Both the position numbers and the translations under genes were made by a program. The notes beneath the pieces are model-generated. The model had not been told where the DNA came from, did no database searches, and saw only the letters and a list, made by a program, of their open reading frames with translations. A DNA stretch of 64,000 bases from an uncultured Desulfomonile sp. (GTDB taxonomy: Bacteria > Desulfobacterota > Desulfomonilia > Desulfomonilales > Desulfomonilaceae): positions 1-64,000 of the forward strand of contig CAJBEZ010000071.1 of the NCBI GenBank assembly GCA_903952205.1, read 5' to 3'. Shown here piece after piece: positions 13,625 through 30,810 of the stretch. Each line of letters begins with the position of its first letter. Positions within the stretch are counted from its first letter, which is position 1.

Positions 13625-14374
13625 ATGACCAGGGACGGGCAGAAGTTTGACCTGGATGAAGAGCTACTGGAAAAACTGTACGCAAAGTACGCCAAAGGAG
13701 GGCTTCGCGTCTCCGGGTGGAGGCAGTGGGCATATTTCTTCGCCAAGAAAAGCCTGTGGATCTTCGTTGTGGAAAGCGCCAGGGCTCTTAAACGCGTTAT
13801 GGACATTGTTGGATCCGCCGCTGGACTGTTGCTTCTCTCACCAGTATTTCTCGTAACCGCATTACTCATAAAGATAGAAGACCGTGGATCCATTTTTTAC
13901 GGTCAGGACCGAGTTGGAAAGTGGGGCAAAATCTTTCGAATGTACAAGTTCCGTTCAATGATAGTCAACGCCGACAAGATGAAGGATACACTTCTGGATC
14001 AGAACGAGTCAGGTGGCGTGATATTCAAAATGAAGAGGGACCCCAGAATTACTCGAGTAGGTAGGGTAATAAGAAAGCTGAGTATAGACGAACTGCCTCA
14101 ACTCCTGAATGTTCTCAAGGGCGACATGTCGCTGGTAGGCCCCAGGCCGCCGGTGCCGCGCGAAGTCGCGGAATATGAACTGTCGGATCGTCGTAGGCTA
14201 GACATGGTGCCTGGGCTTACCTGCCTGTGGCAGGTTGCCGGGCGCAGCGACATTGACTTCGAAGGTCAGGTGCGCCTGGACGTTCAATACCTTGAAAGCC
14301 AATCATTAAAAGGGGATATCATCTTGCTCCTCAAGACCATCCCTGCAGTGCTTTCCGGTAGAGGAGCATACTGA
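13625..14374 (+). CDS. Polyprenyl-phosphate sugar-1-phosphate transferase (PGT initiator)
   Basis: This 249-residue bacterial sugar transferase starts the repeat unit by moving a sugar-1-phosphate from its nucleotide to undecaprenyl phosphate at the inner membrane. It has one hydrophobic re-entrant segment (about 58-82), the YKFRSM block, the catalytic Asp-Glu pair in SIDELPQL (Asp155, Glu156), SLVGPRPP, and the C-terminal W-x-V-x-GRS region. It lacks the N-terminal membrane module of WcaJ/WbaP, so it is the short PglC-like form. AGGAAACC precedes the ATG. The next gene begins 17 bases later. Confidence 0.93.
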   Translation: MTRDGQKFDLDEELLEKLYAKYAKGGLRVSGWRQWAYFFAKKSLWIFVVESARALKRVMDIVGSAAGLLLLSPVFLVTALLIKIEDRGSIFYGQDRVGKWGKIFRMYKFRSMIVNADKMKDTLLDQNESGGVIFKMKRDPRITRVGRVIRKLSIDELPQLLNVLKGDMSLVGPRPPVPREVAEYELSDRRRLDMVPGLTCLWQVAGRSDIDFEGQVRLDVQYLESQSLKGDIILLLKTIPAVLSGRGAY

Positions 14375-17044: not shown

Positions 17045-18199
17045 TTATTTCCGGAGCCAGTCCATTTTCTCTCTCATTAAGCGGAAATAATCATCCACGC
17101 AACCAAGTTGAGTGTCAACAGGATCGGAACTCAAGAGAGCGGCGTATGAATCCTCATGCTCTGGAGCGAAACCGTGCATGCCGGGAAGAGCTTTCAAGCC
17201 CATGTCGCATGGAGCAATCTGCCATCCTGGGTCCATCAGCAGGATCGTATCTCCATACATGTGATCATGGAAATCGATGCTGTATTTCTTGAGTTCCATG
17301 TCATCCAGAATGTGGGAGTGCGGCGCTTTACTAAGGGTCTCAAGTATAATGTCTCTTGCCGAATCATTCAGGAACCATAGTCTCACCATGGTGGAATCGT
17401 ACACTGCGGCATAGTCCTTTCCAAAAATCAACCCCAGTTTTTCTACCTCCCGTTTCATATCTACCACACCGGCCAAAGTGGTCATGCCGTGGTCCGAAAA
17501 AACTGTAAAGTACACATCCTGATAATTCGACTGCGCTTCTTTCATCAGCTTGCGAATATTATCCTCATACCATTTCATCTTGACATCAATTTCCTCCCCG
17601 TCCTTGGTCACTCTATGAAGGAGGCCGTCCATGGCTGCGGTATAAAGAAAAGCAAAGTTTATTTCACCTTTCTGAAGATCTTTTGTAAGCGCCTCAATAT
17701 TTTGACTCTCCTGAAGCCTCCAGTTGGAAATGTGATACGAAATCCGGTTTGCTTCTAGCGTGTCCGCAAGGTTCTTCACCGGACTCAGTCCTCCTGGAAC
17801 AAATATGTCGGTCTTTTCTATGTAATCGAATAAATGAATCCTGGAGAAGGGCATAGCGTACATCTCAAAATAACCGGTGAACCCGTAATACCTGGCAACC
17901 ACCTTGGAGAGGATATGCCGCACTCTCCAGCGATCGGCGATTGAGGAAGGCAGCATGCCAAGTCCGAGGTATTTCATCATCTTGAAGGGGGATTTTTCAG
18001 GGGCATAGTAGTAGAAACTTAGATGTTTATGAACCGTAGGTTTTTCTCCGGTCAAAATAGTCGGGATCGCCGTGGAAGAATATCCGAACTGCATTCCTAC
18101 CCTGTATCTGTGCGGCAGCAGGTCCTTGAGAAAGCTTCTGTCCTTGATAATTTCCCAACCCATAGCGTCTATAAACATGAATATCGCAATTTTTTTCAC
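17045..18199 (-). CDS. Alkaline-phosphatase-superfamily phosphodiesterase-like protein
   Basis: The 384-residue cytoplasmic-looking protein has the type I phosphodiesterase/nucleotide pyrophosphatase metal-site pattern: Asp in MFIDAMGW, a Thr/Ser nucleophile region SSTAIPTILTG, Asp/His in AAMDGLLH, Asp-His in FSDHGM, and His in PGMHGF. It would hydrolyse a phosphodiester or sulfate/phosphonate ester with two metals. No signal peptide is present, unusual for the superfamily. It is antisense to the surrounding locus and followed (on its strand) by the HATPase gene end. The substrate is unknown; release of a phospho-linked group from a polymer intermediate is only a guess. Confidence 0.8.
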   Translation of the reverse strand: MKKIAIFMFIDAMGWEIIKDRSFLKDLLPHRYRVGMQFGYSSTAIPTILTGEKPTVHKHLSFYYYAPEKSPFKMMKYLGLGMLPSSIADRWRVRHILSKVVARYYGFTGYFEMYAMPFSRIHLFDYIEKTDIFVPGGLSPVKNLADTLEANRISYHISNWRLQESQNIEALTKDLQKGEINFAFLYTAAMDGLLHRVTKDGEEIDVKMKWYEDNIRKLMKEAQSNYQDVYFTVFSDHGMTTLAGVVDMKREVEKLGLIFGKDYAAVYDSTMVRLWFLNDSARDIILETLSKAPHSHILDDMELKKYSIDFHDHMYGDTILLMDPGWQIAPCDMGLKALPGMHGFAPEHEDSYAALLSSDPVDTQLGCVDDYFRLMREKMDWLRK

Positions 18200-18336: not shown

Positions 18337-20007
18337 CTACTTTGCCACAGGGAGATAACCAATTCCTCGTCGCGCAAGCAAGGATCCTTCAGCCACATAG
18401 AACTGCGTCAATCCCTTAAGATACTCTATACGCGCCTGCAGAGCTGATATCTGGCTCGAAACGATGTCTCTCTGGGCTTGGGCCACCTGGAAAGCGCTTC
18501 CAACTCCGAGCCGGTATTTCTCAGTTTGGGCCTCCAGTTTCTCAAATTGAAACTTCAGGGCACGTGAGGCTGCCGCCATCTGATCCTTAGCCCTGTGAAT
18601 TTCTACATACGCTAGGAGAACGTCCTGCTGTGCAAGTTGTAAGAGGTTATCCACCGCCTCGCTTTGTTGCGCCAACTGTATCACAGATTTTGTGTGTTCA
18701 GCTTCCGCCCTTCGATTGAATACGGGAATTTCCAGCTTCAGACGACCAATAACATCCGCTCCTCCGTAGCCGGCCGAGTAATCATATATGGAACCGGCAA
18801 AGGTTTCGGAGTACCCTGTTCGGCCAAGCATTATAAATAGGTCCAGCTTGGGAAGCAAACCATTCTTGGTCTTGACGATTTCGAGCTGTCCTTTTTGCTG
18901 TTCGAGTCTGGCCTGGTTGATGTCAGGCCTATAACTCATAGCAACCTGGACATGCTCCTGGAGTTCTTCCACTGAATCTTCAGGAATCTTGGGCTTGGTC
19001 AGCAACCTCAAGTGACGGTTCCACAAATCCATGCTGGGAGGGCTCATAAGTCTGAGTAGAGTAATTCGGGTCTTTTCCTGTGCGCTCTTGGCGTCTATCA
19101 GCGATTGTTCCTGAGTTGCGGCCTCGGCCTGCAGGAAAAAGATCTCACTCTCCGCCTTCTGACCCGCAGTTATCCTTTCCCTGGTCTCTTTGACCATTTT
19201 TTTGGCAAGCCCGACGGCTTTCCCGTAAATGTGGACTTTCCCCAGAGCCAGAAAATAATCCCAATAGGATTTTTCAATTTCCGCAGTAAGTGTCTGCGCT
19301 ATGCCCATGAGTTCATATTGGGATATCGCCGTATCGATACGAGTCTTTCTCAAGCCGGCGAGATTCGCCTCCAATCCGCCGCCACGCAGCAATGCCTGAG
19401 TTATGCTGAGTTTGCTATAGGCGCTCCAGTCACTCTTTACCGGGTCTTTACCTTCAGATCCAGCGGTCAAAGGAAAATTGGGGTTCCATTCCGTGCCTGT
19501 TTCAAAATCCACAGTGGTTCCAGTAGGAAGAAACTGCGCAACCCCGGCCGAAGCCTTGAATTCCTTTGTAACAGTATAATAGTCGGACCTTTGCCGAGAC
19601 TTTTCCAAAGTGGACCTGATCGTAGGGTCGAAAGCCGATCTCTCCAGTTGTTCAGATGTGCTCGTGATCGAAGGCTTTAGCCTTTGAACCTGGAATGATT
19701 TGTTGTTCGACAGTCCAACAAGGACCGCCTGTGTCAGTGTAACTTCTATGAGGCTGTTTGGAGGGGCGTTGGCAAGAGATATATCGCTGTTTGGACTAGC
19801 GCCGACTGGAGGGGGCCCATTAACTCCCTTCTGCTGAACCGTCCCCGGCTTAGGAGGAAAAGCGAAGTCCAGCGCAGGCTTCCAGAAAGTTGTCTTGCAG
19901 GAAGACAGAACGGCCGGGATCACAAGAATGAGCCCAAGAGCCGCGAGGCGTTTGATTATACGCAAGCCCAATATTTTCTCCGCAAACCAACCTACAGCTA
20001 AAACCAT
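18337..20007 (-). CDS. TolC-family outer-membrane lipoprotein
   Basis: The 556-residue protein has a signal peptide with lipobox LSSC, so it is lipid-anchored, and the OEP repeats of long helices (Gln/Ala-rich, residues about 240-330 and 440-540) flanking strand-rich segments. It forms a trimeric outer-membrane and periplasmic channel for secretion or efflux. No membrane-fusion protein or inner-membrane pump is adjacent. It lies next to the phosphopantetheinyl transferase and NRPS, so export of the peptide or polymer is possible. It is on the minus strand, with a 440-base upstream spacer. Confidence 0.9.
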   Translation of the reverse strand: MVLAVGWFAEKILGLRIIKRLAALGLILVIPAVLSSCKTTFWKPALDFAFPPKPGTVQQKGVNGPPPVGASPNSDISLANAPPNSLIEVTLTQAVLVGLSNNKSFQVQRLKPSITSTSEQLERSAFDPTIRSTLEKSRQRSDYYTVTKEFKASAGVAQFLPTGTTVDFETGTEWNPNFPLTAGSEGKDPVKSDWSAYSKLSITQALLRGGGLEANLAGLRKTRIDTAISQYELMGIAQTLTAEIEKSYWDYFLALGKVHIYGKAVGLAKKMVKETRERITAGQKAESEIFFLQAEAATQEQSLIDAKSAQEKTRITLLRLMSPPSMDLWNRHLRLLTKPKIPEDSVEELQEHVQVAMSYRPDINQARLEQQKGQLEIVKTKNGLLPKLDLFIMLGRTGYSETFAGSIYDYSAGYGGADVIGRLKLEIPVFNRRAEAEHTKSVIQLAQQSEAVDNLLQLAQQDVLLAYVEIHRAKDQMAAASRALKFQFEKLEAQTEKYRLGVGSAFQVAQAQRDIVSSQISALQARIEYLKGLTQFYVAEGSLLARRGIGYLPVAK

Positions 20008-20448: not shown

Positions 20449-21210
20449 CTATTTGGAAGGCCCAAAGATGCGAATAGCTGACGGAGGGGGAGAGGTAGCC
20501 AGACAAGCCTTATATAACGTGCTGAAAGTTATGTCGGAGAAAAACCATAAATTTCCATCCTTTTCCATGGTGGCGCTCCTTATTGGAGGTTCTTCGGCAC
20601 AAGCGCCGGCAGTATTGAGGGGTACTTCGAAACTGTCGAGGGGTAAAGACAAGCCTCGTCCTATGGCTTTAAGAAACGCCTCTTTTCGTACCCATATCTC
20701 GAAGAATAGGCTAACAAGTCTATGCGATTCGGCCTCTCGAAGGGTCGCTGATTCTTGGGGCGTAAAGAATCTCGTGGCGACTTTTATGACCGGGTAATTT
20801 TTGTCTACGTATTCAAGATCAACCCCCACACTCAAATCTTTGCCGAATGCCAATATCATGCTGTCCCTGGAATGAGCCGTGTTGAATTGAAGGCAGCCAA
20901 CTTCCTTGCTTCCAAGTAGTTCGGGTTTGCCCCAGGCTGAATGACAAAATTCTACCCTGTCGGCTCTAATTTCTGTGTAGTTCTGAATAAGAGTCCGCAG
21001 GAAACCCCTTCGTAATATGAACGATGACCTGATGTCCGGTAATCGAAATCTTTGCGCCCATGCCCTTTCTTCATCGGAAATAACAGATTCCAACTGGTCT
21101 TTGTATGGTTCAAGTTTTGGAAGAAAGACTCGCCAGACGTGTACAACGAAATTCTCCAGGCGGAAATCAGGGCAACACATGTCTCCAAAATATCTGGACA
21201 AATTTTCCAT
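20449..21210 (-). CDS. Sfp-type 4'-phosphopantetheinyl transferase
   Basis: The protein is 253 residues from ATG 21210, chosen because AAGGATGATCAA precedes it; the frame is open to 21369 but that would overlap the NRPS start. It attaches the phosphopantetheine arm of CoA to carrier-protein serines. The signature motifs are GVDLEYV (Mg-binding Asp and Glu) and FFEIWVRKEAFLKAIGRGL (W-x-x-KEA-x-x-K), plus an N-terminal Arg-rich region. It is divergent from the NRPS with about 65 bases between and should activate the two PCP domains. Confidence 0.95.
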   Translation of the reverse strand: MENLSRYFGDMCCPDFRLENFVVHVWRVFLPKLEPYKDQLESVISDEERAWAQRFRLPDIRSSFILRRGFLRTLIQNYTEIRADRVEFCHSAWGKPELLGSKEVGCLQFNTAHSRDSMILAFGKDLSVGVDLEYVDKNYPVIKVATRFFTPQESATLREAESHRLVSLFFEIWVRKEAFLKAIGRGLSLPLDSFEVPLNTAGACAEEPPIRSATMEKDGNLWFFSDITFSTLYKACLATSPPPSAIRIFGPSK

Positions 21211-21274
21211 TTGATGATCATCCTTACATGCTGGATCGCATTGTGGGAAGAAAGAACTGGACGTGGAGAGGCTG

Positions 21275-24200
21275 ATGGACAAAATCCTAAACCAGGCGCT
21301 GCATGGCCCGGCGTTAACGTCCGGCGCATCCGTCTTCATCCACAAACGAATTGCTGAACAAACCAGCAAAAATCCAAAAGCGCCCGCATTTGTCAGTGAT
21401 CATGAAAATCTCACCTATGAAGAGCTGGACGTCAGATCAGCATACATCTCCAACCTTATCAAAGAAAAGATCGTTCAGCAAAACTCATTCATAGGTGTCT
21501 CGATGAACCGTTCACCGAGAGTGATCGAGGCGCTGCTGGGAATCATGAAGGCAGGATGCGCCTACGTACCGCTTGATCCGGCCTATCCTGAAGAACGACT
21601 AATGGATATTCTGGACGATACTGGCGCTCCGGTGGTCTGCGTAGATTCAAACTTCGCGAGACTATTCGGTTCTTCGAAGGCCAAAATAATCGATCTCGAT
21701 AACGAAAAAGAGATCGTCAACCCACTTTCTAATGCTTCAGATATCAGCGCCGAGAATCCCGTCGCCTATGTCATTTACACCTCTGGTTCTACAGGAAAAC
21801 CAAAGGGAGTTTGTTGTCTCCACAACGGAGTGACTAACCTTCTGTCTGATTTTCAGAATCGTCAACCATTGGGACCGGGGGACATTTGTAGCTGGTGGAC
21901 CAGTCTTAACTTCGACGTCTCTGTTTACGAAATATTTGCGCCCCTTGTATGCGGCGCCTGCTTGATCGTAGCCCCCGATTCAGTAAGATCATCCGGACCG
22001 GACCTCATGGACTGGTTATATGAAAAACGGGTGACAAGCGCGTATATACCGCCTTTTATGGTCACAGACCTCGCCCAGTGGGTTCAAAGGAATCCTGGAA
22101 GAAGTAAACTAAAAAGACTTCTCGTGGGAGTTGAACCCATTCGTGAGAGAACACTGCTGTCAATCCATGACATGGTTCCAGGATTGGTGATAATAAATGG
22201 ATACGGGCCGACAGAGACAACAATTTGCGCCACATTGTACTCCATAAGTCCAGACAATGTCATACATGAAAACACTCCTATTGGTCGCCCAGTTCAAAAT
22301 ACCTATGTCCGAGTCCTGAATGAACAAGGAACAGAGGTCGGGCCGGGGACTCAAGGGGAATTATTCATTGGAGGCGCAGGACTGGCGGCAGGATATTTGA
22401 ACCGACCAGAACTTACGGCTGAGCGTTTTGTCAGGGATCCGTTCAGCGACAAATCCGACGCTAGAATGTACAAGACAGGTGACACCGTTTCGATTCTTGA
22501 TGACGGCAATCTGGAATTTCTCGGCCGAACGGATCAACAGGTAAAACTAAGAGGATTTAGAATTGAACTCGGTGAAATCGAGACTCAACTCAGAAAAATC
22601 AGGGGTGTTAGGGAAGCCGTAGTCGTTTTGAGGGAGGATGTACCGGGGAGCAGTGTGATCGCAGCGTATCTGGTCATTAATGAAGGACATTCTTTGTCGC
22701 TTGAGTTGATCCGGAATCATCTCAAGAAATATCTGCCTGATTACATGATTCCCTCGGCTTTTGTGAAGCTTGATCGCGTCCCTGCCACGCAGAATGGCAA
22801 AACCGACAAAAATGCCCTTCCAAAACCGGACATGGAAAACCTGATTCGCGGTAGCCAATCAGTATTCCTGGGTCCACTCACCCCGATTGAATCCGATTTG
22901 GTCAGCATTTTTCAAGATGTTCTAAAAATCGATTCAGTTGGCGTTGGCGACAACTTCTTTGCGCTGGGTGGTCATTCGCTATTGGCCGTACAGCTAGTGT
23001 CAAGGATCAGGGACACTTATGGCGTAAATATTACCTTGGCTGACGTCTTTCAGACCCCTACGGCGGAGGACCTGGCGACACTTATTCAAACTACTGCGAC
23101 TGAGACTGATCACCCCGATCTTGGCAACGTCATGAGTGGAATAGGAGGCGAAGAAACTGGATTATCCTTTTCCCAGATGAGGCTTTGGTATTTGGACCAA
23201 CTGGAACCAGGAACGCCCGCCTACAACATCTGCCTGGCATATAAACTCGTTGGTTCTTTGGACGTTTTCTCTCTGGAAGAAAGTCTGGCTGAAATAGTCA
23301 ACCGCCATCAAAGTTTGAGAACCGTTTTCGAAAAACGTGGATTGGAACCAGCGCAAGTCGCCTCCGAAGACAGATCATTTTCTCTTCGATTTGAGGACCT
23401 CCACCACATTCCTGCGTCAGGCAGGGAGACTGAGGCTCGCATGCTATGTCTTCAAGAGTCTCAAAAAGGATTTGACCTCTTTAAGGGCCCTCTTTTTCGG
23501 TGCATGCTTCTTAGGCTTGATCATGAACAACATGTCATCATGTTTACAACGAACCATATTATATCTGATGGCTGGTCCACTGGCATAATTATCAGGGAAT
23601 TGATGGACCTTTATTCAGGTTTTGCGTCCGGAGCGCCAGTTCAGCTTGCTCCTCCGCAGACGCGATATACAGATTATGTAAAAGCTCAAAAGGAGTGGAT
23701 GCTAAGTAACTCCATAAAGTGTCAACTGAATTACTGGAGGCAACGATTCCTAACAATACCGAAACCACTCAACCTTCCCACCGACAAACCGAGGCCTCCG
23801 ATTCAGAGTTATAGGGGAGCCTCTGAATCGATGGTAATTGACGAAAACCTTTCCGACAAAATGAGGGCATTGGCCGCAAAAAATGGAGCGACATTGTTCA
23901 TGATCCTGCTCGCAGGTTTCAAAGCCCTCCTTTACCGCTACACCCAGCAGGACGATGTTTGCGTAGGAACGTTCGTCGCCAATCGAAGCCGCAAGGAATT
24001 GGAATCTGTAGTAGGTTTTTTCATAAACACGGTGGCTATAAGGACTCGTTTGGACAGAGACACAAGTTTTGAGGCTCTGCTGGGGAAAGTCCGGGAAAAT
24101 ACGCTGGGGGCTTACGCCAATCAAGACGTTCCTTTTGAAAAGATACTGGAGGAAATAAACCCTGAACGAAGCCTTGCTCGAACCCCTGTGTTTCAGGTCA

Positions 24201-27178
24201 TGATGGTTCTGCAAAACATGCCTCTACCTTTGTTGGAGCTACCTGGAATAGATTGTCAGCCCATTGAACTGGAAACCTTCAGATCAAATTTCGATATTAC
24301 CTGCTGGGTTTATGAAGATGGACGCCGAATAAAAATAGTCCTGGAATACAGTACTGACCTTTTTGAAGGGGACACCATAAATAGACTTCTGGAGCATCTC
24401 AGGAATGTGCTCTCAGCAGCATGCGCCAATCCTGAATTGAAGATATCTGAACTTGAGTTACTCGGCAATCAGGAAACTATGCTTATTCTGAACGACTTCA
24501 GTGGGAAGAACAATCGCTTCATTCCACCTGCGCACGCTGTTTCTCACATGTTTGAAAGCCAGGTTCGAGCGGCCCCTGAAGAAATCGCATTGATCGAATG
24601 GGATGGTGATTCCAGTCGCCGGAAGGAAACGACGTATCTGGAGCTTAACCGCCACGCCAACTTGATAGCCCGGGCCGTTCGGGAACGATGTGAAGGCCCC
24701 GAGACCAATGTGGCCATAATGGTCGAGCGTGGCCGCTTCCTGATATTCGGAATCATGGGTATCATGAAGGCCGGAGCCGCCTACCTGCCAATCGACCCAA
24801 ACCAACCTCTTAACAGGGTCTCTTTCATGCTGAATGACGCGTCTTCACGATTAGTTCTCACCGATTCGGCAAATCTTTCGAAAATAAAAACCCTCGTTGA
24901 GGAAAAACTACTACTGCACTCTCCGGAAGTGATATGTCTGGATACTGACCTGGGCGAGACTCAATTGGCGGACCATGCCAATCCACCTGGACCTCATCTG
25001 GGACAGGCGGCGTACGCAATATATACATCCGGCTCCTCTGGCCGACCTAAAGGTGTAATAGTCGAACATGGCGCCCTAGCCGCCTTCACGCAATCAGCCG
25101 TAGATTTGTATGGACTTGGTTCTGATGACAGGGTATTGCAGTTCGCGTCCCCAGGTTTTGACGCCAGCCTGGAAGAAATCTTTCCTTCGCTCACCAGTGG
25201 AGCCTCTCTTACGCTTCGCTCGGAATCCATGATTCGATCTTTACCCGCTTTTTCAAAAGCTTGCGGTGACTTAGGAATTACCGTTCTGGATCTCCCTACT
25301 GCTTTTTGGAGTCAACTTGTAGCGTCGGTTCAACGCGGGGAAACATCTCTACCGGCATCGCTCCGACTTGTTATCATTGGAGGCGAACAGGCTTCGTACG
25401 AGACGGTAATGACCTGGAGCAAAATCGTCGGCGAAGACATCAGGCTTTTTAATACTTATGGCCCGACTGAGGCCACAGTAGTGGCGACTGCCGTTGAACT
25501 TGGCGGACAAACCGCTCTTTTGTCAGTCAAGAGACACGTCCCAATTGGAAAGCCTCTGCCTCATGTTAGAACGTATGTCCTCGATCACAATTTCAAACCA
25601 ACACCCATAGGAATCCAGGGGGAACTGTTTATAGGTGGCGCAGCGCTGGCTCGTGGCTATATAAATTTGCCGGAACGGACCCATGAAAGTTTTATTCCCG
25701 ACCCCTATGGGGAAAGGGTTCATGACAGGCTTTACAAGACTGGTGACAGGGCGAGGTACAATAAGGACGGGATACTGGAGTTTCTTGGAAGAGTTGATCG
25801 GCAGATCAAAATCAGAGGATTCAGAGTCGAATTGGAGGAGATAGAGTCAGCCCTCTCAGGTTTTGATGAAATACAACAGGCCATAGTCGTTCCATGGGAA
25901 GACGCCTTTAATTCGTGGCGCCTAACCGCTTTCTTGGTCCCCAATCCGTCAGTAAGAATCGAATCAGACGAATTGCGCGGGAAACTGACCTTGGAACTTC
26001 CTGATTTCATGATCCCTTCGACTTTTGTAATTCTTGAAAAACTTCCTTTAACTTCAACGGGCAAGATTGATTCACAGGCTCTCATTGCATCAGCGTCTTC
26101 ATTTGCTGAAGCCCCGGTGTCTATGGTTCCACCGCGCAATCCGGTTGAAAAGATATTGACGGAGATTTGGGGCGAGGTTTTCGGAAGGGACTCTGTTGGG
26201 GTTCGGGACAATTTTTTTGATCTCGGGGGACATTCCCTCCTCAGTCTTCAAATCATTGACCGGGTTAACAGGGCGGGCCTCTACCTTACGCCGGCGCAGT
26301 TTATACAAAACCCAACCATCGAGAAACAGGCTCAGGTGATGACAACCGCTCGACCGTCATCCATGGATGGGACATGGTCATCCCTGGTGGAACTGCAACC
26401 TTACGGTTCACAACCGCCATTATATTTTGTCCATTCAACCCCGGGTGATGTCCTGGGGTATGTAAACGTCATCAACATGCTGGGCGCTGATCAGCCGTGT
26501 TTTGGTTTCCAGTCATTGGGATTGAGGGATGCGACAAGAACACACCAAACCGTCGAGGAAATGGCTTCTTTCTATGTTGACGAAATGTTCAGGTTTCAAC
26601 CTGATCCGCCGTATGTTCTCGTGGGGTGGTGCTATGGTGGGATCCTGGCGGCGGAGATGGCGGTTCAAATGAGCGCCATGGGTCGTGATGCGGCTCTTCT
26701 TGTTTTAATAGAGACCCCGTTCCCACGAATGAAAAGAGGAAGGGCTCGTTACTTCCTGAGTCGAGCCTTGAATCTAATTCGTATGGGTCCCACGGGTTGG
26801 GTTCTCTACATCAGGAACAAGATAGAGTATCGTAAGAAAGTCGAAAAAGGCGCCTTTGACAAACTTTTTTCCCTGGGACTGGATCACGGACCTTTGGCCA
26901 ATCGCTCAAATGTTTACAGAACAAACATGGGAGCAGTTTCGTTGTATAGAATGAAGGATGTTCCATCCTGTCCCGTCAGAATGTTTCGAGGGGAAGAACT
27001 TAAGGAAGGATACATTCCTGATGTGGAAGAACTTTGGCTCAAGATGTGCCCTGACGTTCGATTATACTCTGCTCCGGGAAATCATCTAACCATTCTGAAG
27101 GAACCGGGATCAACCATAGTGGTCCAAAAACTCAGGGAATGTCTGAAGGAAATCCCTGCAAGACAGCCTCTAGGGTGA
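21275..27178 (+). CDS. Bimodular NRPS, A-PCP-C-A-PCP-TE, with Cys-type thioesterase
   Basis: This 1967-residue cytoplasmic megasynthase should condense two amino acids and release the product. A1 (about 15-500) has YTSGSTGKPKGV and NGYGPTETT; PCP1 Ser is in GGHSL near 567. The LCL-like C domain (625-1065) has NHIISDGWS, the first His of HHxxxDG being Asn but the second intact. A2 (1080-1590) has YTSGSSGRPKGV and NTYGPTEAT. PCP2 Ser is near 1654. The TE (about 1710-1967) has GWCYGG, so Cys1786 replaces the usual Ser; ETP follows at the usual acid position and GNH near the end. By eye the A codes read DVYYLGGIC(K) and DAEDIGTVV(K). ATG 21275 (GAGAGG) or GTG 21263 is the start. Confidence 0.95.
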   Translation: MDKILNQALHGPALTSGASVFIHKRIAEQTSKNPKAPAFVSDHENLTYEELDVRSAYISNLIKEKIVQQNSFIGVSMNRSPRVIEALLGIMKAGCAYVPLDPAYPEERLMDILDDTGAPVVCVDSNFARLFGSSKAKIIDLDNEKEIVNPLSNASDISAENPVAYVIYTSGSTGKPKGVCCLHNGVTNLLSDFQNRQPLGPGDICSWWTSLNFDVSVYEIFAPLVCGACLIVAPDSVRSSGPDLMDWLYEKRVTSAYIPPFMVTDLAQWVQRNPGRSKLKRLLVGVEPIRERTLLSIHDMVPGLVIINGYGPTETTICATLYSISPDNVIHENTPIGRPVQNTYVRVLNEQGTEVGPGTQGELFIGGAGLAAGYLNRPELTAERFVRDPFSDKSDARMYKTGDTVSILDDGNLEFLGRTDQQVKLRGFRIELGEIETQLRKIRGVREAVVVLREDVPGSSVIAAYLVINEGHSLSLELIRNHLKKYLPDYMIPSAFVKLDRVPATQNGKTDKNALPKPDMENLIRGSQSVFLGPLTPIESDLVSIFQDVLKIDSVGVGDNFFALGGHSLLAVQLVSRIRDTYGVNITLADVFQTPTAEDLATLIQTTATETDHPDLGNVMSGIGGEETGLSFSQMRLWYLDQLEPGTPAYNICLAYKLVGSLDVFSLEESLAEIVNRHQSLRTVFEKRGLEPAQVASEDRSFSLRFEDLHHIPASGRETEARMLCLQESQKGFDLFKGPLFRCMLLRLDHEQHVIMFTTNHIISDGWSTGIIIRELMDLYSGFASGAPVQLAPPQTRYTDYVKAQKEWMLSNSIKCQLNYWRQRFLTIPKPLNLPTDKPRPPIQSYRGASESMVIDENLSDKMRALAAKNGATLFMILLAGFKALLYRYTQQDDVCVGTFVANRSRKELESVVGFFINTVAIRTRLDRDTSFEALLGKVRENTLGAYANQDVPFEKILEEINPERSLARTPVFQVMMVLQNMPLPLLELPGIDCQPIELETFRSNFDITCWVYEDGRRIKIVLEYSTDLFEGDTINRLLEHLRNVLSAACANPELKISELELLGNQETMLILNDFSGKNNRFIPPAHAVSHMFESQVRAAPEEIALIEWDGDSSRRKETTYLELNRHANLIARAVRERCEGPETNVAIMVERGRFLIFGIMGIMKAGAAYLPIDPNQPLNRVSFMLNDASSRLVLTDSANLSKIKTLVEEKLLLHSPEVICLDTDLGETQLADHANPPGPHLGQAAYAIYTSGSSGRPKGVIVEHGALAAFTQSAVDLYGLGSDDRVLQFASPGFDASLEEIFPSLTSGASLTLRSESMIRSLPAFSKACGDLGITVLDLPTAFWSQLVASVQRGETSLPASLRLVIIGGEQASYETVMTWSKIVGEDIRLFNTYGPTEATVVATAVELGGQTALLSVKRHVPIGKPLPHVRTYVLDHNFKPTPIGIQGELFIGGAALARGYINLPERTHESFIPDPYGERVHDRLYKTGDRARYNKDGILEFLGRVDRQIKIRGFRVELEEIESALSGFDEIQQAIVVPWEDAFNSWRLTAFLVPNPSVRIESDELRGKLTLELPDFMIPSTFVILEKLPLTSTGKIDSQALIASASSFAEAPVSMVPPRNPVEKILTEIWGEVFGRDSVGVRDNFFDLGGHSLLSLQIIDRVNRAGLYLTPAQFIQNPTIEKQAQVMTTARPSSMDGTWSSLVELQPYGSQPPLYFVHSTPGDVLGYVNVINMLGADQPCFGFQSLGLRDATRTHQTVEEMASFYVDEMFRFQPDPPYVLVGWCYGGILAAEMAVQMSAMGRDAALLVLIETPFPRMKRGRARYFLSRALNLIRMGPTGWVLYIRNKIEYRKKVEKGAFDKLFSLGLDHGPLANRSNVYRTNMGAVSLYRMKDVPSCPVRMFRGEELKEGYIPDVEELWLKMCPDVRLYSAPGNHLTILKEPGSTIVVQKLRECLKEIPARQPLG

Positions 27179-27279: not shown

Positions 27280-30200
27280 ATGAGAGCTTTGATATCGGCC
27301 CTCTTTATTATGACTTTGTGTCTTGGAATCCCTATCACAGACGTAGCCGGCGCATCTGAAAAGGGAGAGATAGTTTATTCAGGTAAATATCCCGACAAAT
27401 GCCTCAAGAACATAGTTCAGGAAAACTTACAGGGTGTTGAGAAGGGTTACGCTCTAAAACTGACACCCGACCAATGGCATGCGCCAATATTAAAACTCTT
27501 CTGTGACGCTAAAAACCGCAAGGACTTCACACCTTACTCAACTATCGAGTTCTATTTCCGGAGCCCCAGTTCCAATCCTGGAAACCCCACATTTGAGCTA
27601 AGGACATGGGACAAAACTTCGCTGAAGGTACCCATCCTAAAATATATCTCAGGTGGAACTATCGATAATACTTTCAGACAGGTAACGATTCCGCTTGCAC
27701 AACTTGTGTCAAAAGAATGGGATCTTGGAAACGTTGAAAGCCTGGCCTGGAATCCGGATAGTGAGAACCGCGTCTACTACGTCGACAAAATAACACTTAG
27801 ACAGACACAACTGCCAAGCCTTATAACCGAAGGGCAATTCCGGCCCTTTCCCGAAAGCAATACTGTTTTCAGGCTGACCTTCAGCAAGTGGTGTCAGGAA
27901 AAAACAGCGAAGGACCTTAACAACTATTCAATATCCAGCGCAAATGACCCCCTTTATTCTATCCCTACGCATCCTGTGGACGCCGGTGTCACACACAGGG
28001 TTCATTCATTCACTTCGAGCGGAGTCGCTCAAAAACGGTTTTTTGTATATATCCGCCTACCGAATCCGCTCCGAAATAACTCAACTTATTCAGTTAGCGT
28101 TAAGGGCTTGTCCGACGAATTTGGGAATATCATGTCTCCGAATGAATTCGTTCTGGATTACTCAGACAGGCGGATTCATAACCCCAATATCAAGGTTAAC
28201 CAGGAAGGTTATTTACCCGAAGGGCCCAAAATTGGTTATGTAGGTGGATACTTAGGAGACATGGGGGGAGGAACCTGGGCGGTGGGAGACAAAGGCGCCG
28301 CACTTTACTGGGATGGACGGACTGCTCCAAAAAAAGCCGTTGTTCCTGTCGAAAGCGCTTTAAGGGGGGTTTCAGGATTGAGGGATGACGATATTTTCGC
28401 CGTTGGAGATTTGGGTGTCATCCTTCACTGGAATGGATCCGATTGGAGACGCGTTGATTCACCAACTCGCAACGACCTGATGGCCGTTTGTTTTGGCCCC
28501 ACGGGAACAGGCTGGGCAGTCGGCTCAGGTGGGACGATTCTCCGTCACAAAAATGGAGAATGGCTTGAGATAACCTCTCCTACCAAGGACACTTTGAGGA
28601 GCGTCTGGGCAGGTCCGCAAGACGTTGCCTGGGCGGTTGGGGACCACGGTAAGATCCTGAAGTGGGATGGTGGGCAATGGACGGTAGAACCGAGTTCTAC
28701 AGAATTGAATCTCCGGTCAATCAACGGCAGCCACAAAAATATGCTTTGGGCCGTCGGAGATAACGGCATAGCGCTGTCCCGCGATTCCAACCAGTGGAAA
28801 CCTTGCTCCTCAGTTCCACAAACCTCGGTTACATTACGTTCAGTTGTTACCGACCCGAGTGGCGGGGTCTGGATCTCCGGGGACAGTGGACTGCTTTGGA
28901 ACAAAGCCGACGCAGGGGAATGTAAATTCGCGGCATTGCAAAGTGGAACTACCTTGCCACTCTATGGAATAACACGCAGGCATGGACGCGAACTATGGGC
29001 AGTGGGTGGGCAGGGATACATTGTTTCCCTCTCAGGGGAAAACAAACCTAAAAAAGAACTCTTCTCATCGAATGACGATCTCTTCGCAGTTTTCTCAATG
29101 TCTCACGGCGCAATGAGATTGCCCGACCCGCCGCCTCAAGCCACGATTGAGGAATTACCGGCCAATAAGCCTACAATAACCGTCCCTCTCAAACTCGAAG
29201 CAGCCAACTGGTATCTTTCCGGTGAAGACGTTTATTCCTTCAACTTCTCAGAAATTGAGACACCCGGGACATACAGGGCGTATATACCCGGATTGGGAGT
29301 TTCAGACTCCTTTCGAATTGGAGACGACGCTCTAAATCACGCCGCCTATACAACCGCTCACGCATTCTATTATCAACGCTGCGGGACAGCTCTGGTTGAA
29401 CCCTATTCTGAAAAGCGGTTCACCAGGCCCATAGACCATGAGTATGATCTCAACGGGCGTAAAATTGACGCGGCTTTTCATCCATCACTACCTGGAACGC
29501 CCCTTTACAGTGGAGAAGGACCAGGAACGACGGCTGATGCGCACGGGGGCTGGCATGACGCGGGGGATTACGGTAAGTACTTGCCGACAGCCGCAGCGGC
29601 TTTATGGTATCTGTTCACCGGGTACGACATGGAACCAGCAAAATTCTCCGACGGGACCTGGAATATCCCGGAGAGTGGAAACGGCGCCCCTGATCTGCTT
29701 GACGAAACCAGATGGGAAGTCGATTGGATGGCACGTATGCAGGGACCAGATGGGGGAGTCTACCACAAACTGACTTCGCAGAAATGGGTAAAGGGCATGC
29801 CTCAAGATGAAGAAGTACCTCGAAATTTCTTTGAAAAAACTACTCATGACACAGCTTTAGCCGCCGCTGTGTTCGCCTGCGCATCACGGCTCTGGAAACC
29901 GTATGACCGGGAAGCGTCTGACTTTTACATGGAGAGGGCCCTTAAAGCCTGGGACTTTCTGAAACAGCATCCGGAAGAAACACCCAAAGGAGGATTTCGT
30001 AACCCGCCGGGTAACACCACAGGTGAATATCGCGACACGGAAGATATTGACAACAGACTGTGGGCCGCGGCCGAACTTTACCGGGCAACGGGGAAAGATG
30101 ATTACAGGGACTATTTTGAAAACTGGTGGAAAAACACACAGGAACATTCATGGGGATGGAACGCATGGAGGCATTTCTATCGTAGCGCCTACTGGGCATA

Positions 30201-30810
30201 TTTGAGGGCGCCATGGCCCAGCGCCAACACTGAAATAAAAAGGAAAATCCGTGAGGGCCTCATAGCTAAAGCCGACAGCACACTAAAATTAACTTACTCT
30301 AATCCTTACAGGAATGGAGCTAGACTCGATGTGCCGGAATGGATTGGTTGGGGGGAATTCACCCAGAGTTCGCAGTACGCTTTCCTTTCTCTCCAGGCAT
30401 GGACACTGGAAAAAGAGCCCAAATACTGGGTGGCCGCTCTGGCCAATCTGGACGCCCAACTGGGCGCCAATCCTCTCTCCATGTCCTTCATAACCGGACT
30501 CGGATACCGCTATCCGAGAGACCCTCTCCATCTTCCATCTTTGTATGACGGAGAAGAAGACCCCGTGCCCGGGTTGCCAATATTCGGAGCGTCGGCGCAC
30601 CTGCCAAATAATCAACCCTACTACATTGCGAGCCAGGAAGATAAAAACAGCCATCCTCCGTCGAAGGCGACAAAGGATCCCTATCCCATATTAAGACGCT
30701 ATATTGACGCTCATGAGCTAGTTCCCATGTCGGAGTTCACCATCGTTGATATGGCGGTAGCGGCCGCAGTATTCAATCTTGTCGCTCAGAGTCCGGTCAG
30801 AAAATGGTAG
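27280..30810 (+). CDS. Secreted GH9 glycoside hydrolase with inserted beta-propeller
   Basis: The protein is 1176 residues from ATG 27280; an earlier ATG at 27139 overlaps the NRPS. Order: signal peptide (1 to about 24), a beta-sandwich carbohydrate-binding-like domain (28-175), an Ig-like segment (to about 290), the first strand of a CelD_N Ig domain (KVNQEGYLP, about 300), about 280 residues of propeller blades with AVGD.G.IL.W repeats, the rest of CelD_N (TPGTYRAYIPG, about 660), then GH9. The catalytic base motif is HDAGDYGKY (about 757) and the acid is Glu in MSEFTIVD (about 1150). It likely cleaves beta-1,4-glucan-type chains outside the cell, perhaps trimming the locus product as BcsZ does for cellulose. 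Confidence 0.9.
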   Translation: MRALISALFIMTLCLGIPITDVAGASEKGEIVYSGKYPDKCLKNIVQENLQGVEKGYALKLTPDQWHAPILKLFCDAKNRKDFTPYSTIEFYFRSPSSNPGNPTFELRTWDKTSLKVPILKYISGGTIDNTFRQVTIPLAQLVSKEWDLGNVESLAWNPDSENRVYYVDKITLRQTQLPSLITEGQFRPFPESNTVFRLTFSKWCQEKTAKDLNNYSISSANDPLYSIPTHPVDAGVTHRVHSFTSSGVAQKRFFVYIRLPNPLRNNSTYSVSVKGLSDEFGNIMSPNEFVLDYSDRRIHNPNIKVNQEGYLPEGPKIGYVGGYLGDMGGGTWAVGDKGAALYWDGRTAPKKAVVPVESALRGVSGLRDDDIFAVGDLGVILHWNGSDWRRVDSPTRNDLMAVCFGPTGTGWAVGSGGTILRHKNGEWLEITSPTKDTLRSVWAGPQDVAWAVGDHGKILKWDGGQWTVEPSSTELNLRSINGSHKNMLWAVGDNGIALSRDSNQWKPCSSVPQTSVTLRSVVTDPSGGVWISGDSGLLWNKADAGECKFAALQSGTTLPLYGITRRHGRELWAVGGQGYIVSLSGENKPKKELFSSNDDLFAVFSMSHGAMRLPDPPPQATIEELPANKPTITVPLKLEAANWYLSGEDVYSFNFSEIETPGTYRAYIPGLGVSDSFRIGDDALNHAAYTTAHAFYYQRCGTALVEPYSEKRFTRPIDHEYDLNGRKIDAAFHPSLPGTPLYSGEGPGTTADAHGGWHDAGDYGKYLPTAAAALWYLFTGYDMEPAKFSDGTWNIPESGNGAPDLLDETRWEVDWMARMQGPDGGVYHKLTSQKWVKGMPQDEEVPRNFFEKTTHDTALAAAVFACASRLWKPYDREASDFYMERALKAWDFLKQHPEETPKGGFRNPPGNTTGEYRDTEDIDNRLWAAAELYRATGKDDYRDYFENWWKNTQEHSWGWNAWRHFYRSAYWAYLRAPWPSANTEIKRKIREGLIAKADSTLKLTYSNPYRNGARLDVPEWIGWGEFTQSSQYAFLSLQAWTLEKEPKYWVAALANLDAQLGANPLSMSFITGLGYRYPRDPLHLPSLYDGEEDPVPGLPIFGASAHLPNNQPYYIASQEDKNSHPPSKATKDPYPILRRYIDAHELVPMSEFTIVDMAVAAAVFNLVAQSPVRKW

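Follow-up and report, generated by a model that had tools for sequence, protein, structure and literature searches.

Thioesterases (TEs) with a cysteine nucleophile have been described in several NRPSs. The TE of AB3403, an Acinetobacter baumannii NRPS (PDB 4zxh), is a terminal Cys TE with an Asp at position I, described in a paper that leaves its product uncharacterised (PMC11298585). BulbE, the characterised Cys TE of bulbiferamide synthesis, forms a 15-atom macrolactam, and a thioester intermediate has been argued to favour aminolysis in comparison with an oxoester (PMC11536411). Cys TEs also act in the synthesis of obafluorin, a beta-lactone (ObiF1; PMC6668435), and sulfazecin, a beta-lactam (SulM; PMC11298585), as the first-pass annotation of the DNA analyzed here had stated. 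Replacing the Cys by Ser in BulbE, ObiF1 and SulM either abolished cyclisation or turned it to hydrolysis (PMC11536411, PMC6668435, PMC11298585).

We analyzed a 64,000-nucleotide stretch (the window) at the start of a 236-kb contig from a 4.78-Mb genome, in which a single open reading frame encodes an NRPS ending in a TE with a Cys nucleophile and a Glu at the usual acid position:

21263–27178, + strand: NRPS gene, 1971 aa, order A-T-C-A-T-TE (profile matches, ORF listing)
21353–22822, + strand: adenylation domain 1 (PF00501; pocket letters D-V-Y-Y-L-G-G-I-C by motif)
22895–23086, + strand: carrier domain 1, GGHSL (profile match, motif)
23159–24487, + strand: condensation domain, NHIISDG (profile match, motif)
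24536–26089, + strand: adenylation domain 2 (profile match; pocket letters D-A-E-D-I-G-T-V-V)
26150–26350, + strand: carrier domain 2, GGHSL (profile match, motif)
about 26378–27175, + strand: type I thioesterase domain, last ~266 residues (PF00975 and PDB alignment)
26630–26632, + strand: Cys1790, nucleophile, codon TGC (alignment with the other TE copies and AB3403)
26711–26713, + strand: Glu1817, acid position I, codon GAG, 27 residues past Cys1790 (alignment)
26993–26995, + strand: Glu1911, candidate acid close to position II (E, E and D across the copies), 30 residues before His1941
27083–27085, + strand: His1941, catalytic histidine, codon CAT, motif GNHLTIL (alignment)

The reading frame opens at GTG 21263, and the likelier start, judged from the GGAGAGG just upstream, would be ATG 21275. 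The domain profiles confirm the two-module organization proposed in the first-pass annotation, which had placed the TE at 26600–27178; that start does lie inside the domain, whose extent is about 26378 to 27175. The TE is C-terminal, 3' of carrier domain 2, as in type I NRPS and PKS enzymes, and the NRPS C-terminus matches PF00975 above the curated cut-off (E 1.9e-13, and 5.5e-14 in the genome search, where it is the sole match). The genome search likewise returned the NRPS as the sole protein with a condensation domain above the Pfam cut-off, and domain annotation of the NRPS found neither an epimerase domain nor an MLP domain like that of ObiF1. The TE is present in 3 of the 18 genomes of the family, several of the remaining genomes being incomplete.

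The nucleophile elbow GWCYGG begins at residue 1788 (base 26624) and the LIETP motif at residue 1815 (base 26705). The Cys in the former and the Glu in the latter, both noticed in the first-pass annotation, are upheld by the ORF translation, the codons and the alignment, in which the Glu falls on the position-I Asp of AB3403. The TE thus has the nucleophile (C1790) and His (H1941) of a type I TE, with Glu1817 in place of the Asp. None of these residues differs among the full TE copies, which are those of the window, of G005 (same genus, 77% identity to the window copy) and of G012 (another genus of the family, 61%); their retention in the two further copies makes a sequencing error unlikely. 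We note that G012 carries two versions of the NRPS (G012:C44 and G012:C236; 597 of 666 residues, or 90%, identical), both at contig ends, one of which stops before the Glu; these are either two copies or a strain mixture. AlphaFold2, run on the three-copy TE alignment only, gave a model too poor to interpret (pLDDT 35.6, pTM 0.38), and the viral contigs searched held no further TE homologues for a deeper alignment; the geometry of a Cys1790-His1941-Glu1817 triad is accordingly a prediction from the alignment.

Solved structures were searched with phmmer and with a profile built from the three TE sequences, and the top matches by both searches were the Cys TE of AB3403 and the Ser TE of 7crn/7dxo. 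In AB3403 (E 1.7e-16 over 116 residues), the Cys lies in GWCFGG, GWC falls on GWC, and the position-I Asp falls on Glu1817, all free of gaps; AB3403 differs in that its acid is Asp and in having a single C-A-T-TE module. BulbE-TE, compared by its published residue numbers, shares the Cys nucleophile and an acid 27 residues on (Cys961/Asp988), but this acid is again Asp and the product is a 15-atom indolylamide macrocycle (PMC11536411). The arrangement of AB3403 and BulbE, a Cys elbow with the acid about 27 residues further on, is therefore the one found at residues 1790 and 1817. ObiF1 and SulM share the Cys nucleophile, but both carry their Asp at position II, after strand beta7; ObiF1 has Gly1173, and thus no side chain, at position I, where the window TE has Glu1817, and a C-terminal MLP domain (PMC6668435), and SulM has a QCN elbow and a diaminopropionate substrate (PMC11298585). 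Neither matched the TE profile among the solved structures even at E ≤ 10; the library did contain the ObiF1 chain 6n8e, which was matched via its A domain. Glu at position I was also seen in the TE of the PKS chain 7r0x (LLEPPFPH), for which a literature search found no paper, and which differs in having a Ser nucleophile and in belonging to a PKS.

To place the TE among its relatives, we surveyed 49 further TEs, gathered by similarity to the window TE and thus not a random sample. They come from genomes within the phylum and, for the wider phyla, from plasmids only (those of cyanobacteria, proteobacteria, one actinobacterium and one planctomycete); 14 have Cys and 35 have Ser as nucleophile. 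All 35 Ser TEs keep both Asp and His. The Cys TEs are more varied: nine have Asp and His, L024 has Glu and His, L027 has Ser in the acid column, L017 and L030 have Glu without the His, and L019 and L021 have Asp without it (the row of L070, a remote relative, is loosely aligned). Glu at the acid position has thus arisen more than once and the C-E-H combination is not unique; with L017, L024, L030 and 7r0x also carrying it, Glu is a tolerated variation. A non-Asp acid occurs in 5/15 Cys and 1/38 Ser TEs (Fisher p 0.005), a test that ignores kinship and whose kinship-aware pairwise counterpart is without power.

The phylogeny that the first-pass annotation had suggested as a check gave an ambiguous result on clustering with ordinary hydrolytic TEs. 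In an IQ-TREE analysis of 55 rows, the three Desulfomonilaceae TEs group together with full support, alone on a long stem and without an evident closest relative, and the tree places the window TE with neither strained-ring TEs nor any named hydrolytic group. Eight changes (8) account for the Cys rows, against a mean of 14.7 after shuffling, and the AU test (p 0.219) does not reject a single Cys clade.

Four of the surveyed Cys TEs (L017, L019, L021 and L030, from G318:C1, G360:C124 and G324:C124) form a supported clade (100/94) in which the His column is Pro, gap-free, as in PIYPKAMLVEP. A B12 radical SAM protein (L093) accompanies two TEs of this clade in a single PKS/NRPS cluster, and another TE of the clade is part of a hexapeptide acyltransferase-carrier-TE fusion that has a formyltransferase and a radical SAM protein as neighbors (L094). 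Elsewhere, on a plasmid of Nostoc sp. C052, the Cys TE NRPS gene of L033 lies immediately 3' of ectB (diaminobutyrate transaminase), and this TE may act on a diamino acid substrate.

The pocket codes of the two A domains were assigned manually from motifs, and neither is identical to a listed code; a literature search for the exact codes brought up only the ApnA table (PMC5311044). The A1 code, DVYYLGGIC, is the same in the orthologues. The A2 code, DAEDIGTVV, is the same in all three copies and has two acids, E239 and D278, which match the ApnA A1 series DVEDIG..EK and its relatives; these take Arg, and some of them Lys or Tyr as well (PMC5311044). The resemblance suggests that the A2 substrate is a basic amino acid and not Ser or Thr.

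For the substrates, the release chemistry and the product we infer the following. The stand-alone dimodular NRPS would join two amino acids, of which the second is probably a basic one (Lys, Orn, Arg or the like). As expected of the TE family, the TE would move the dipeptide from the last carrier to Cys1790 as an S-acyl enzyme, with Cys1790 activated by His1941 and Glu1817 standing in for the usual position-I Asp. The thioester would then be opened, more probably by an amine than by water. The attacking amine could belong to the dipeptide itself (its side chain or its N-terminus), which would yield a lactam or a cyclic dipeptide, or it could come from outside. The preference for aminolysis is a weak one, drawn by analogy from the reactivity of thioesters towards amines (PMC11536411) and from the amine that a basic last residue would supply; the TE sequence itself fits aminolysis and hydrolysis equally. 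We hold the proposal as a whole tentatively, at somewhat less than an even chance.

Nearly as serious a possibility, though one we would not call probable, is that the same NRPS has a TE that merely hydrolyses the dipeptide, the Cys and Glu having drifted neutrally into an ordinary hydrolytic enzyme. The scatter of the common Cys TEs among Ser TEs (the 8 changes above) suggests that a switch of nucleophile matters little for the type of product, and 7r0x shows that the Glu can accompany a Ser; on the other hand, both Cys and Glu have been retained in all three TE copies, and the Cys-to-Ser exchanges in BulbE, ObiF1 and SulM did affect cyclisation.

It is also possible, if unlikely, that the acid of the triad is Glu1911 (or Glu1912 or Glu1915) near position II, with a triad like those of ObiF1 and SulM and with Glu1817 in some other role. 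The 30-residue gap between Glu1911 and His1941 equals the Asp–His spacing in ObiF1 (1254/1284; PMC6668435) and SulM (2926/2956; PMC11298585), and the Glu1911 column, acidic in all three copies, is acidic in no other aligned TE. Against this, ObiF1 has Gly at position I, and side chains added there impaired it (PMC6668435), whereas here the position holds an invariant Glu; moreover, the assignment of columns in the Glu1911 loop is uncertain, and the ObiF1 and SulM TEs were not recovered as relatives. The usual pattern of position II is G-x-x-D, the Asp of which would presumably land on residue 1913, which is Leu, Ile and Leu in the three copies. We consider position I the likelier seat of the acid because in so many TEs the catalytic Asp falls, free of gaps, on Glu1817.

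The NRPS gene has conserved neighbors:

17045–18199, − strand: type I phosphodiesterase family protein (conserved neighbor)
18337–20007, − strand: TolC-like outer membrane protein (conserved neighbor)
20449–21369, − strand: 4'-phosphopantetheinyl transferase (PF01648; neighbor in both relatives), its true start probably inside this ORF
27280–30810, + strand: large protein with a signal-like N-terminus, a BNR-like region and a GH9 domain (directly 3' of the NRPS in three contigs)

The transferase would arm the carrier domains of the NRPS. These genes stand in the same order (phosphodiesterase, TolC-like protein, transferase, NRPS, BNR/GH9 protein) in the window and in G005; G012 has the first four again, interrupted by a metallophosphatase gene, and its BNR/GH9 gene comes after the NRPS on the other of its two contigs. 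The secreted-looking BNR/GH9 protein always adjoins the NRPS. On either side of these genes the window encodes glycosyltransferases, Wzx- and Wzy-like proteins, a chain-length ATPase and sugar transferases; the G012 flanks encode an ATPase, a glycosyltransferase and an asparagine synthase-like protein. Two genera thus have the NRPS within a surface-polysaccharide locus. More widely, NRPSs with such TEs recurrently adjoin exopolysaccharide genes (L091, L092, L085 and positions 13625–47200 of the window), for example on a Phaeobacter polysaccharide/rhamnose plasmid, on a Pseudanabaena plasmid where the NRPS is followed by a flippase, Wzy and glycosyltransferases, and in Aquisphaera, with an adjoining glycosyltransferase.

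A dedicated exopolysaccharide-decorating NRPS, serving the polysaccharide locus through a Cys TE that by aminolysis would put the dipeptide on an amine carried by a surface-glycan precursor or by another cell-surface acceptor, strikes us as improbable. Least credible of all is a strained four-membered lactone or lactam, for which the Cys nucleophile and the small size of the product speak, both shared with obafluorin and sulfazecin, and against which stand the differently placed acids of ObiF1 and SulM and their lack of detectable kinship, the absence of an MLP domain of the ObiF1 kind, an A2 code unlike those for Ser or Thr, a genome search that found no match to the SbnB family (the 2,3-diaminopropionate enzyme), which speaks against a diaminopropionate route without excluding it, and annotated neighbors that include neither a sulfotransferase nor a transaldolase.

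The first-pass annotation had read the Cys as a sign of strained-ring or otherwise unusual release chemistry, a step left unsupported in view of a survey with 14 Cys TEs among 49, the macrolactam of BulbE, the acid placement of ObiF1 and SulM, the failure to recognize those two as relatives and a terminal A domain that does not resemble the Ser/Thr type. Cys TEs are widespread, and a Cys nucleophile alone does not point to a strained-ring product, of which it is a poor predictor; the window TE, an enzyme of a common kind, is a variant that is uncommon without being unique. Among Cys TEs not only the acid but also the His can differ, whereas S-D-H is constant in the surveyed Ser TEs. A conserved C-E-H TE in a small genome with a single NRPS is a handy case for asking how much of the triad a Cys TE can do without, and the conservation of its place among surface-polysaccharide genes offers a lead.
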